From assembly GCF_002198115.1 (NCBI RefSeq), contig NZ_NGNR01000005.1, positions 1-64,000 on the forward strand: a stretch of DNA of 64,000 bases, in the 5' to 3' direction. Source of the DNA: Robiginitalea sediminis. GTDB taxonomy: Bacteria > Bacteroidota > Bacteroidia > Flavobacteriales > Flavobacteriaceae. The notes under the pieces were generated by a model. The model was not told the DNA's origin. It made no database searches and saw nothing but the letters and a program-made list of their open reading frames with translations. Shown piece after piece: positions 15,132 to 56,413 of this stretch (within the stretch, counting starts at the first letter, position 1; every line of letters begins with the position of its first letter). Both the position numbers and the translations under genes were made by a program.

Positions 15132-15160
15132 TTAAACCTTTTGAGGCGCCCCGGGTCTAA
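15132..15160 (+). promoter_or_regulatory. ECF-type promoter before the sigma factor gene
   Basis: TTAAACCTTTT (15132-15142), exactly 12 nt, then GTCTAA (15155-15160). The same pair with the same spacing recurs at 15745 and 53771. It lies just before the sigma gene, so it is a candidate autoregulated promoter. The expected start point, about 6-7 nt after GTCTAA, falls at or next to the ATG at 15168. Confidence 0.65.
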
Positions 15161-15167
15161 ACCCTCG

Positions 15168-15722
15168 ATGGATATGTCTAGCGAAGTCGTACTGATCGCG
15201 CAGCTGCAGGACCCCGCCACGCGGGATGCTGCCTTCCGCAAACTGGTGGTGCAGTACCAGGAGCGGCTGTATTGGCATATCCGGCGAATCGTATTGGTGC
15301 ACGACGATGCGGACGACGTACTTCAGAACACCTTTATCAAGGTTTTTAAGCACATCGGGCAATTCAAGGGGGACAGCCAGCTGTATTCCTGGATGTACCG
15401 GATTGCCACCAACGAAGCCCTTAGTTTTTTGCGTAAAAATGCCAAGATGCAGGCGGTAGACAGCGAGGCCATGCAGGACTATATGGTTTCCCGCCTCGAA
15501 GCAGACCCCTATTTTGATGGGGACTCCGCCCAGCGGGCGCTTCAGCGGGCCCTGGCCGAGCTCCCGGAAAAACAGCGGTTGGTTTTTAACCTTAAATATT
15601 TCGAGGAGATGAAGTACGAACAGATGTCCGAAGTCCTGGAAACATCGGTAGGCGCCCTGAAAGCCTCCTACCACCATGCTGTGAAAAAAATAGAGCACTA
15701 CCTGAAAACCGTAAATGCCTGA
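15168..15722 (+). CDS. ECF RNA polymerase sigma factor
   Basis: 184 aa from ATG 15168 (a second ATG at 15174). The sigma-2 region is about 18-90 and includes DDADDVLQNTFIKVFKHI and YSWMYRIATNEALSFLRK, the core-binding and -10 recognition helices. The sigma-4 region is about 125-180, with LPEKQRLVFNLKYFEEMKYEQMS and a helix-turn-helix for the -35 element. It heads a three-gene module with an anti-sigma-like membrane protein and a periplasmic sensor-like protein, and the first two genes carry the same bipartite promoter. Probable envelope-stress or metal-type regulator by context. Confidence 0.9.
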   Translation: MDMSSEVVLIAQLQDPATRDAAFRKLVVQYQERLYWHIRRIVLVHDDADDVLQNTFIKVFKHIGQFKGDSQLYSWMYRIATNEALSFLRKNAKMQAVDSEAMQDYMVSRLEADPYFDGDSAQRALQRALAELPEKQRLVFNLKYFEEMKYEQMSEVLETSVGALKASYHHAVKKIEHYLKTVNA

Positions 15723-15744
15723 TCTGCGTATAAAATATTGGATA

Positions 15745-15773
15745 TTAAACCTTTTAGATTAGCGATAGTCTAA
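15745..15773 (+). promoter_or_regulatory. ECF-type promoter before the anti-sigma-like gene
   Basis: TTAAACCTTTT (15745-15755), 12-nt spacer, GTCTAA (15768-15773). Identical hexamer and spacing to the promoter before the sigma gene. The ATG at 15781 is 7 nt after GTCTAA, so the transcript may be leaderless. Confidence 0.68.
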
Positions 15774-15780
15774 GACTGGG

Positions 15781-16287
15781 ATGAAAGCAAAAAAGGAACA
15801 TAGCGGATTTACCCTGCCGGAAGGTTACTTCGACGGGTTTGCGAACCGCCTGGAGAAACGCCTTCAGGAAGGCCCGGGGCTCGTCCTTCCGGAAAAGGAA
15901 GGTTTTGCCGTACCCGAAGGCTACTTTGAGGCCTTCCCGGACCGCCTTTCCCGCCGCCTTTCTGCCCCGAAAGGCAAGGTCCGGTCCCTGTGGTCCTATA
16001 CCTCCTGGGTTGCCGCAGCTGCTGCTGCCATAGCCCTCACCCTGGTCTTCTGGCCGGCGCAACAGACAGAGGCCCCGAGCTTTGAAGACCTGGCCGGCAT
16101 GGAAATTGAACAGTACCTGGAAAGCGGGTACGACGACCTTAGCGCCTATGAACTTGCCGAAAGCCTGCCCCTGGAGCACATTGCCGTGGGAACGCTGCTC
16201 GAATCGGTTCCGGGTGAAGAGCATATCCTCGATTACCTGGATCAAAACATGGAAGACGATGATGCATATTATTGGAACGAAGACTAG
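15781..16287 (+). CDS. Anti-sigma-like membrane protein with duplicated PEGYF motif
   Basis: 168 aa. The cytoplasmic N-terminus contains two copies of a 20-residue motif, at 9-28 and 41-60, each with GF..PEGYF..F..RL..RL (12 of 20 positions identical). One transmembrane segment follows at about 74-92, then an acidic periplasmic tail with many Asp and Glu. Short PEGYFD-type motifs before a single membrane span are common in Bacteroidetes genes that follow ECF sigma factors, and I infer an anti-sigma role. The next gene starts inside its 3' end (26-bp overlap). It has no canonical ZAS zinc motif. Confidence 0.65.
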   Translation: MKAKKEHSGFTLPEGYFDGFANRLEKRLQEGPGLVLPEKEGFAVPEGYFEAFPDRLSRRLSAPKGKVRSLWSYTSWVAAAAAAIALTLVFWPAQQTEAPSFEDLAGMEIEQYLESGYDDLSAYELAESLPLEHIAVGTLLESVPGEEHILDYLDQNMEDDDAYYWNED

Positions 16288-53770: not shown

Positions 53771-53799
53771 TTAAACCTTTTCTTGCCGCGGGCGTCTCA
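53771..53799 (+). promoter_or_regulatory. ECF-type promoter before the GH3 operon
   Basis: TTAAACCTTTT (53771-53781), 12-nt spacer, GTCTCA (53794-53799). The -35-like half is identical to those at 15132 and 15745; the -10-like half differs at one position from GTCTAA. It begins 8 bp after the end of the isomerase gene and precedes the TTG start at 53844. Confidence 0.6.
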
Positions 53800-53843: not shown

Positions 53844-54077
53844 TTGAAACGAAAAGATCTTATCGGAAAAGGCATCGCCTCGGCAGGGGCGGTTGCCGCC
53901 TTTTATGCTGCCCTGGGCCTGCGTAGCATTCCGGAAGGGCATGTGCCCGCCCCCAAACCCACAGAATGGCGTATTCCCGCCCAGCCGGACTCCCAGACCG
54001 GGGAGGGGAACACTTTGCCACCCGGCGCCACAGGGGACAGCCAAAATGAAAACAACGAACCAATTCCCGAACCATGA
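53844..54077 (+). CDS. Small membrane-anchored, proline-rich protein
   Basis: 77 aa from TTG 53844; no in-frame ATG exists. KRKDLIGKGIASAGAVAAFYAALGL is a signal or anchor sequence (helix at about 8-27). The rest is a flexible Pro/Glu/Asn-rich tail. I do not recognise a family. The stop overlaps the GH3 start by 4 bp (ATGA), so it is the first gene of a GH3 / DUF5916 operon behind the third ECF-type promoter. It might be a short anchored partner of the following enzymes, but there is no direct evidence. Confidence 0.55.
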   Translation: MKRKDLIGKGIASAGAVAAFYAALGLRSIPEGHVPAPKPTEWRIPAQPDSQTGEGNTLPPGATGDSQNENNEPIPEP

Positions 54078-56413
54078 AAAAAGTTACAATTCAATTCAGT
54101 TCCCTGCTGCTCACCGGCCTGGCCCTTGTCTTGCTCAGCAGTTGCGGGCCTAAATGGGAGGAAACCGCCAAAGCGGATTTTACTTTGGTGACCAACCCCT
54201 GCGGCCAGAACCTGGGATACTCCCCGGCATCCGGCATCCAATTGCTAACGGTAGACCGCCTGGCATTCAAGGATCTTAACCGCAACGGGGCCCTGGACCC
54301 CTATGAGGACTGGAGGCTCCCGGCCCGGGAGCGGGCCACGGACCTGGCCGCGCGAATGTCCATAGAACAGATTGCCGGACTGATGCTCTACAGCGCCCAC
54401 CAGCGCCTGCCCGGAGGCGGGTTCCGCGGGGCAGACACCTACGGGGGAAAATCCTTTGAAGAGAGCGGGGTCCTGGCATCGGACCTGACCGACCAACAAA
54501 AAAAGTTCCTGACCGAAGACAACCTGCGCCATGTCCTGCTGACCTCCGTGGAAAGCCCTGCCGTGGCTGCCCGGTGGAACAACAACGCCCAGGCCCTGGT
54601 TGAAGGTCTGGGGTTGGGCATCCCGGCCAACAACAGTACCGACCCTCGGCACGAGGCGGAATCGGACGAGGAATTTACCCTGGGGGCCGGAGGCGCCATC
54701 TCGCGATGGCCCAATGCCATAGGGCTGGCCGCCAGCTTCGACCCGCAACTGGTCCGGGAATTCGGGCGGATTGCCTCTATAGAGTACCGGGCTCTGGGTA
54801 TGGCCACAGCCCTCTCCCCCCAGGTAGACCTGGCCACCGACCCGCGGTGGTACCGCTTTAGCGGCACCTTCGGGGAAACCCCTGAAATGGCCACCGATAT
54901 GGCCCGCGCCTACGTGGATGGCTTCCAGACTTCCAGCGCAGAAAAACAAACCGGACAGGGCTGGGGATACGAATCGGTCAATGCCATGGTAAAACACTGG
55001 CCCGGAGGCGGCTCCGGGGAAGGCGGGCGCGACGCCCACTACGGCTTCGGAAAGTTTGCCGTTTTCCCGGGCAACAACCTGGCCATGCACATGATCCCCT
55101 TCACCGAAGGGGCCTTTAAATTGGAAGGGGGTACCGGCCGCGCTGCAGCCGTGATGCCCTATTACACTATCTCCACTGGGCAGGACCCCGGGGGCGACAA
55201 TGTGGGCAATGCTTTCAGCAAGTATTTCATCACCGATCAACTTAGGGGAAAATACGGATATGACGGCGTGGTATGTACCGATTGGGGGGTTACACGCCCG
55301 GAGGAGGGAATGGCCGCCTTTGGCCGCACCCCCTGGGGTGTAGAACACCTTTCAGAAGCCGAGCGCCACTACAGGGTATTAATGGCAGGAGGTGACCAGT
55401 TTGGTGGCAACAACGCAGCAGGACCCGTGCTGGAAGCCTACCAAATGGGCGTGGCCGAACACGGGGAGGACTTTATGAAGGAGCGCTTCCAAACCTCGGC
55501 CCGCAGATTGCTGACCAATATTTTCCAGGTGGGCCTTTTTGAAAACCCCTATCTGGACGTATCCGAAACCGAAGCCATTGTGGGCAACCCGGAGTTTATG
55601 CAGGCCGGTTTCGAGGCCCAGCAGCGCTCCGTAGTCCTCTTGAAAAACCAGGGGGATGTCCTGCCCCTGGCCCAAAACACCAAGGTATACATCCCACAGC
55701 GGTATGTACCGCCCTCCCGGAGCTTTTTCGGTCAGGAAATCCCCGGCCGGTGGGAAGACCCCATCAAACCGGAACTGGCCTCGAAGTATTTTGAGGTGAC
55801 CGGCACCCCCGAAGATGCAGATGTGGCCATTGTAGTAATAACCAGCCCCATCAACGGGCGCACGGCAGGGTACAGTGCGGAAGATGCCGAAGCAGGCGGC
55901 AACGGGTTTTTCCCGATTTCCCTCCAATACGGCCCTTATACCGCAACAGAAGCCCGGGATCCCTCCCTGGCAGGCGATGCCCGGGAAGGGGACGTACTGA
56001 ACCGTTCCTACAAGGGCAAAAGCACCACCGCCCACAACCATACCGACCTGAAACTCATCCAGGATACGCGCAAGGCCATGGGCAACAAACCCATGCTGGT
56101 AATCCTGAAACTATCGAACCCTACCGTGGTGTCCGAATTTGAGGCGGACATCCAGGGCCTGGTGGTCAATTTCGACGTCTCCGACCAGGCCGTCCTGGAT
56201 ATCCTCGGCGGGAAGGTAGCCCCCTCTGGACTCCTCCCCTTGCAAATGCCGGCCAATATGGCCACGGTGGAAAAACAATTTGAGGACGTGCCCTTAGACA
56301 TGGACCCCCACGTGGACACGGAGGGGAATACCTATGATTTTGGATTTGGCATGAACTGGGAAGGCCCCATTTCCGATGACCGGACGGCGGCCTATGCCCG
56401 AAAAAGCGACTAA
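54074..56413 (+). CDS. Glycoside hydrolase family 3 lipoprotein
   Basis: 779 aa. A lipoprotein signal ends VLLSSC (Cys17). The N-terminal (beta/alpha)8 barrel contains the nucleophile Asp403 in VVCTDWGVTR and the earlier KHWPGGGSGEGGRD. The C-terminal (alpha/beta)6 domain follows (about 500-770; SVVLLKNQGDVLPLA and on). GH3 enzymes are beta-glucosidases, xylosidases or N-acetylglucosaminidases; the sequence does not decide. The outer-membrane position suggests extracellular glycan degradation. Coupled to the small protein upstream; the DUF5916 gene starts 6 bp downstream. Confidence 0.88.
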   Translation: MKKVTIQFSSLLLTGLALVLLSSCGPKWEETAKADFTLVTNPCGQNLGYSPASGIQLLTVDRLAFKDLNRNGALDPYEDWRLPARERATDLAARMSIEQIAGLMLYSAHQRLPGGGFRGADTYGGKSFEESGVLASDLTDQQKKFLTEDNLRHVLLTSVESPAVAARWNNNAQALVEGLGLGIPANNSTDPRHEAESDEEFTLGAGGAISRWPNAIGLAASFDPQLVREFGRIASIEYRALGMATALSPQVDLATDPRWYRFSGTFGETPEMATDMARAYVDGFQTSSAEKQTGQGWGYESVNAMVKHWPGGGSGEGGRDAHYGFGKFAVFPGNNLAMHMIPFTEGAFKLEGGTGRAAAVMPYYTISTGQDPGGDNVGNAFSKYFITDQLRGKYGYDGVVCTDWGVTRPEEGMAAFGRTPWGVEHLSEAERHYRVLMAGGDQFGGNNAAGPVLEAYQMGVAEHGEDFMKERFQTSARRLLTNIFQVGLFENPYLDVSETEAIVGNPEFMQAGFEAQQRSVVLLKNQGDVLPLAQNTKVYIPQRYVPPSRSFFGQEIPGRWEDPIKPELASKYFEVTGTPEDADVAIVVITSPINGRTAGYSAEDAEAGGNGFFPISLQYGPYTATEARDPSLAGDAREGDVLNRSYKGKSTTAHNHTDLKLIQDTRKAMGNKPMLVILKLSNPTVVSEFEADIQGLVVNFDVSDQAVLDILGGKVAPSGLLPLQMPANMATVEKQFEDVPLDMDPHVDTEGNTYDFGFGMNWEGPISDDRTAAYARKSD

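Follow-up and report, generated by a model that had tools for sequence, protein, structure and literature searches.

Two copies of the same two-box motif lie in the 64,000-nt stretch of DNA from the marine bacterium Robiginitalea sediminis analyzed here (the window), one upstream of an ECF sigma factor gene and one upstream of the gene that follows it, and the question that this locus raises is whether that sigma factor uses both sites as its promoters. A sequence-only reading of the window had placed the pair before the ECF gene and its partner, and we found both copies, TTAAACCTTTT-N12-GTCTAA, exactly at those positions (P1 and P2, Table 1), P2 lying between the stop codon of the ECF gene (15720-15722) and the ATG of the next gene at 15781. 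The same reading had described both the boxes and the spacer as identical. The 11-nt and 6-nt boxes are indeed the same, and so is the gap of 12 nt; the two gaps differ in sequence (gaggcgccccgg versus agattagcgata) and share their length only. The distance between the two identical 17-base cores is 613 bp. As had been supposed, such an arrangement is unlikely to arise by chance: the relaxed pattern TTAAACCTTTT-N11-13-GTCTNA has three matches in the window and none in 100 dinucleotide shuffles, and the exact matches in the 3.3-Mb genome are the three of the window, with none in the reversed control. We conclude that the motif pair is real and very probably functional, and that it belongs to a known kind of system with some fresh detail.

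Table 1. Features of the sigma operon and candidate further targets, with positions in the window. Scores of at least 12 refer to the upstream region.
Feature	Position	Strand	Evidence and remarks
Predicted promoter P1, TTAAACCTTTT-N12-GTCTAA	15132..15160	+	Upstream of the ECF gene in 100/107 distinct loci
ECF sigma factor gene	15174..15722 (alternative ATG 15168)	+	Pfam Sigma70_r2 1.1e-13, Sigma70_r4_2 4e-15; TIGR02937 sigma70-ECF above cut-off
Predicted promoter P2, TTAAACCTTTT-N12-GTCTAA	15745..15773	+	Site in 101/108 distinct loci
Probable anti-sigma factor, 168 aa	15781..16287	+	Place and topology; no family above cut-off
Secreted Spy/CpxP/CnrX-like all-helical protein, 158 aa	16259..16735	+	AF2, Foldseek, homologue profiles
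Third match, TTAAACCTTTT-N12-GTCTCA	53771..53799	+	44 nt before the TTG of a 77-codon frame, 274 nt before the GH3 gene
Glycoside hydrolase family 3 (GH3) gene	54074..56413	+	Pfam PF00933 9.9e-28; weak candidate target
MFP (RND pump adaptor) gene			Score >=12: 9/9 genus, 4/11 others
Small secreted protein without Pfam family			Score >=12: 9/9 genus, 2/4 others
YceI gene			Score >=12: 3/3 genus, 0/4 others; weak candidate
PepSY-like gene			Score >=12: 4/5 genus, 1/5 others; weak candidate
Esterase gene			Score >=12: 4/6 genus; no match outside the genus at E 1e-60; weak candidate

The protein encoded between the two sites has the domain composition of the ECF group (group 4), namely sigma2 and sigma4 only (Pfam region 2 at residues 26-92 and region 4 at residues 123-175 of 184 aa), and an alignment of relatives makes the ATG at 15174 a likelier start than the ATG at 15168. 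AAC precedes GTC by 20 nt in both copies of the motif, which is also the AAC-to-GTC distance in the E. coli RpoE consensus with its GTC at -10. Passages of PMC8103513 give AAC at -35, CGT at -10 and autoregulation as hallmarks of ECF systems, and state that RpoE needs the C at -10. The -10 box of the window copies is GTC, preceded by G in one copy and by A in the other (GGTC, AGTC), so that the strict CGT form is absent from both. If the C of GTC is taken as -10, the predicted +1 of P1 falls at 15167, and the same count would put the +1 of P2 at 15780, directly adjacent to the ATG with which the next gene begins.

Conservation of the two sites was analyzed in two sets of loci. The first set was drawn from 40 genomes, 38 of which gave a match, and comprised the 30 best loci; the 13 of these on the minus strand were turned before scoring. 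A site matching at least 13 of 17 positions at spacing 12 was present near 24 of the 30 ECF genes and 24 of the 30 next genes, against 1.8% and 1.4%, respectively, in shuffles; of 597 other windows taken from these loci, 4 had such a site. The second set, the best 80 of 571 candidates, consists mostly of close relatives and reaches Mariniphaga and a Prolixibacteraceae bacterium (L117 and L126); in it the site was found at 76 of 79 ECF genes and 76 of 80 next genes, counts that still include L065 and L124, which repeat L011 and L024. With these repeats dropped, which was done only for the counts of distinct loci, a weight matrix at a score of 12 gave the numbers for P1 and P2 in Table 1, with both sites present in 94 of the 107 distinct loci listed and one or the other absent in 13. 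Even where the listed loci had supplied nothing to the matrix, it found a site at 76 of 80 ECF genes and 77 of 81 next genes. The concrete recognition sequence offered by the sequence-only reading needs correction. AAAC is invariant in all 47 sites picked at 13 of 17 or better, the T-run and the last bases vary, and TTAAAC(C/T)(T-rich)-N12-(G/A)TCTWA describes the putative recognition sequence better. Two genomes deserve a remark of their own. A MAG recorded as Rhizobium sp. Q54 (L144) carries a sigma operon resembling that of Flavobacterium and is probably mislabelled or contaminated, and G008 is the only one of the 10 genus genomes searched in which no close orthologue of the sigma factor was found (best E 3.6e-15), which may reflect its completeness of 74%.

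The position of P2 relative to the start codon of the next gene adds a point that the earlier reading did not have. In the window the P2 box ends 7 nt before the ATG, which would place the A of AUG at +2. This gap is 5-9 nt in 86 of the 96 listed loci with a site and a found anti-sigma gene, a count obtained with a finder that took ATG starts only, which favours short ATG distances, and that required a P-x-x-Y-F-like motif; in the distant loci L116, L117 and L126 the distance is 19, 1 and 18 nt, outside that range. The P1 box in the window ends 7 or 13 nt before the sigma start, depending on which ATG is used, and in 68 of the 76 loci with a site in the second set (best 80 of 571) there is no in-frame ATG between the box and the start of the match but only TTG or GTG, mostly 14-29 nt from the P1 box. 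Since P2 mostly ends 5-9 nt before its ATG and the sigma starts seem to lie farther from P1, the anti-sigma mRNA from P2 is probably near-leaderless and the sigma mRNA leadered. Leaderless mRNAs are scarce in this family: they make up 5.5% in F. psychrophilum (PMC9723704), and in F. johnsoniae 87% of the leaders are longer than 10 nt (PMC6847099). The P2-to-ATG spacing and the predicted near-leaderless anti-sigma mRNA are what the present analysis adds to the sequence-only reading.

The 168-aa protein encoded downstream of P2 is probably an anti-sigma factor, an assignment based on its place and topology. In its first part a predicted helix follows each of two P-x-x-Y-F stretches; then come a TM-like stretch near residues 74-93, which recurs in 100 of 104 homologues, and a C-terminal part. 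Profile search assigned it to no Pfam family, and the only NCBIfam match was NF052375 antisigma, at an E-value of 0.061 and 13.3 bits against a cut-off of 100; one of 71 homologues matches this profile, at 3.8e-05. The AF2 model is weak (pLDDT 77.5, pTM 0.27; helices at 20-30, 48-61 and 74-90), and fold comparison with it returned no structure match. The start of the third gene overlaps the anti-sigma gene by 29 nt, stop codon included. Its product is modeled by AF2 as an all-helical protein with a pLDDT of 92, and the signature FW-x-x-(Y/F/H/L) is present in 99 of the 101 third ORFs found.

The reach of this promoter type beyond the operon was then considered. The sequence-only reading had proposed a genome-wide search for enrichment of the motif upstream of genes, and in its raw form this expectation fails: 10 genomes of the genus contain 37 matches with at most 2 mismatches, 16 of them in the operon, so that 21 lie beyond it versus 26 in the reversed control, and the genome of R. 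sediminis itself, at up to 3 mismatches and with the operon included, has 8 matches versus 9 in the control, that is, no enrichment. Because the raw count outside the operon is no higher than in the control, the regulon would be small, and further likely targets appear only when orthologous upstream regions are compared. For this comparison the score threshold of 12 was set after the background had been determined (maximum 11.1 in 4000 random 250-nt windows of genus loci). When 4000 random windows are taken from loci outside the genus, 42 score at least 13, so single matches there mean less. The profile scan of the genus scored the best 150 of 429-1210 candidates per genome, and the upstream comparison was made without L192 and L217 (both G008, partial matches) and L245 (contig edge).

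Two families stand out in this comparison (Table 1), and we consider that, on the upstream sequences, the same sigma factor probably also acts on the promoters of two further units, an RND efflux operon and the gene for a small secreted protein. Some positives are not independent, as the family had been found through them; this holds for 3 of the 9 secreted-protein positives, 8 of the 9 for MFP, 2 of the 3 for YceI, 2 of the 4 for PepSY and 2 of the 4 for the esterase. When these discovery rows are removed, the site remains in 6/6, 1/1, 1/1, 2/3 and 2/4 cases, respectively, and one of the two remaining PepSY positives (G005) is also in the 10-genome match list, though the family was chosen otherwise. 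Among 128 upstream windows of ORFs of at least 200 aa at genus loci, repeats L065 and L124 included, 14 reach 12; 13 of these belong to the MFP and esterase genes and the last (L176) had itself been fetched as a match. That locus, in G005, has TTAAACCTTGG-N12-ATCTTA upstream of a gene that reads by eye like an outer-membrane efflux lipoprotein. For the secreted protein, AAAC and TCTAA are kept in 9 of 9 genomes with a mean spacer agreement of 4.9 of 9, and the ATG follows the box by 11 nt in all nine; the 20 nt before the box are conserved as well (mean 7.3 of 9), and the box is thus not the sole conserved stretch. The MFP gene of R. sediminis matches HlyD_3, and in G004 the gene after MFP matches ACR_tran. 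The conservation of the MFP site is less clean because it is overlapped by an inverted repeat and by a box resembling the TAnnTTTG element of the main sigma factor; the spacer is conserved too, and the conservation may have another cause. One relative (L216) has TTAAACCTTTT-N12-GTCCAA with neither the TAnnTTTG-like box nor the dyad. The overlap of the ECF-like site with the main-sigma-like box and the inverted repeat (AAACT-N7-AGTTT as recognized by eye) before the RND adaptor gene is alike across the genus (L201-L204, L210 and L212-L215; C1:80839-80870 in R. sediminis) and perhaps reflects two layers of control.

The remaining families are weaker. The third match of the window and the GH3 gene downstream of it have a counterpart in G007 (L039), where a like site (TTAAACCTTTA, GTCAAA) precedes a GH3 gene, and the GH3 site is known from these two genomes (G000 and G007). 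In L222-L224 (G005, G002 and G004), about 35 kb separate the sigma operon from a YceI gene that carries a site. A small protein at L007 and L163 was dropped as a target, its site being present in 2 of 8 genus genomes, which are the discovery genomes only (0 of 6 in the rest), and in 0 of 5 others.

From the sites, their conservation, the gene order and the domains, all read directly from the DNA, we infer recognition by this sigma factor, anti-sigma activity, start points, signal and feedback as follows. Both sites would be promoters recognized by the product of the ECF gene that lies between them, and the sigma, anti-sigma and Spy-like genes would form a feedback operon, a reading to which we give a probability of about 0.82. 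An envelope signal, sensed perhaps by the Spy/CnrX-like protein or by the C-terminal part of the anti-sigma factor, would free the sigma factor from its membrane-bound inhibitor. Transcription from P1 would then yield the sigma/anti-sigma/Spy-like mRNA as positive feedback, and P2, inside the operon, would yield extra anti-sigma/Spy-like mRNA, providing negative feedback together with a periplasmic chaperone or sensor. The P2 transcript would start at or a few nt from the anti-sigma AUG and give a near-leaderless inhibitor mRNA, the sigma factor being translated from a short leader, and efflux and secreted proteins would follow the release of the sigma factor. Since the layout recurs in about 100 related loci, we probably see here a commonplace envelope-stress circuit of these bacteria.

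Other explanations of the two sites were weighed against this one. They could belong to another ECF sigma factor, one that activates the operon from outside. One ECF promoter can resemble another, 16 ECF matches at E <=0.1 (the operon's own gene included) occur in the genome, and parts of PMC9723704 suggest that ECF regulons of a flavobacterium partly overlap. However, no like site was found upstream of the 15 other ECF genes, where the best score is 5.7 versus 29.5 for the operon sites, and the pair travels with the operon through the 94 loci that have both; we regard control from outside as unlikely. The absence of a like site before the 15 other genes supports the specificity of the promoter for this operon, and together with the promoter geometry and the 94 of 107 loci it sustains the proposal of the sequence-only reading that the promoter is an autoregulatory ECF promoter. 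That the boxes are instead operators of a DNA-binding regulator, with no promoter, might be argued from the -35-like box TTAAACCTTTT, which extends beyond the AAC that forms the core of ECF -35 boxes, but the fixed 20-nt distance from AAC to GTC is that of ECF promoters, P2 stands directly before an ATG, and no dyad across the boxes is visible by eye, which makes this reading very improbable. An origin of the copies by local duplication or from a mobile repeat would account for two identical 17-base cores 613 bp apart; as the spacers and flanks differ and both sites are present separately in many genera, we find it scarcely credible.

A further alternative concerns the signal rather than the sites, namely that the third protein binds metal and the circuit, as in CnrYXH, controls metal efflux. 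The best Foldseek match of the third protein is CnrX (probability 0.98, TMt 0.61), Spy ranking lower with a probability of 0.35, and the RND pump adaptor gene carries a site; among 67 homologues, 11 match Metal_resist at E <=0.01. Nevertheless, the E-value of the CnrX match is only 0.25, LTXXQ (CpxP/Spy) fits about as many of the homologues (10 of 67, best 8.8e-05), the third protein of the window itself matches neither LTXXQ nor Metal_resist, and in the alignment of the 67 homologues none of the columns with an occupancy above 70% exceeds 30% His or Cys. A metal sensor thus seems doubtful, and the feedback operon under its own sigma factor, responding to the envelope, is the reading that we retain. 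Its extension to the phylum is tentative, and we offer it as a conjecture somewhat more likely to be wrong than right: a Bacteroidota-wide ECF circuit in which an internal autoregulated promoter would give a leaderless AUG anti-sigma mRNA, the sigma mRNA being leadered and starting at UUG or GUG in most relatives, so that the inhibitor would be over-produced in each burst of sigma activity, and which, equipped with a CnrX-like sensor of something other than metal, would drive periplasmic chaperones as well as an RND efflux pump.

For many of the ECF sigma factors of Bacteroidota no promoter is known, and a motif tied to one widely conserved sigma factor would let its regulon be read from genomes. 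The spacing of P2 also opens the testable question of whether leaderless translation keeps the anti-sigma factor in excess, in a group with few leaderless mRNAs.

No statement of this motif was seen among the open-literature matches listed, those for its letters included; it may be in print in subscription papers, supplements or ECF-classification logos. The E. coli RpoE/RseA operon is not known to include a Spy gene, and RseA belongs to another anti-sigma family than the candidate described here. RpoE is autoregulated, as is predicted for the sigma factor of the window. The SM6 promoters of Flavobacterium psychrophilum, also from Flavobacteriaceae, are of the ECF type, and one of them precedes an ECF/anti-sigma pair; their description, in the portions consulted, centres on a CGT box and on targets of type IX secretion, and the comparison is one of descriptions only (PMC9723704). 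A paper on a Riemerella sigma factor was set aside, its accessible part having no visible tie to the sigma factor of the window (PMC6557517). Dma/Das and EcfO/Reo of Bacteroidales are likewise ECF/anti-sigma pairs of Bacteroidota tied to the state of the envelope, but their anti-sigma factors, as presented in excerpts, span the inner and outer membranes, whereas that of the window has 168 aa and one TM-like stretch (PMC13088901, PMC13114119).

When sequence profiles of the two partner proteins were compared with solved chains, neither CnrX nor CnrY was retrieved, and in contrast to CnrYXH the family of the window has no conserved His or Cys column. The Cnr system has an RND pump as a target, as is probable here, and the gene order of CnrYXH differs from that of the window operon. 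Sections of PMC4598750 describe CnrYXH of Cupriavidus metallidurans as likewise made up of an ECF sigma factor, an anti-sigma factor and the periplasmic CnrX, to which the third protein is likened, and report two cytoplasmic helices of the anti-sigma factor in a crystal, whereas the two short N-terminal helices here are only predicted, with a pTM of 0.27. The closest described operon is CirY/CirZ-Spy of Phocaeicola vulgatus, likened by its gene order, in which sigma, anti-sigma and Spy-like genes follow one another as they do here, the Spy-like gene there being co-transcribed (PMC13114119). The passages of that source give neither a promoter sequence nor an internal promoter, both of which are predicted for the window operon, and they report that loss of CirZ most raises cirY, spy and the two genes just downstream (PMC13114119).
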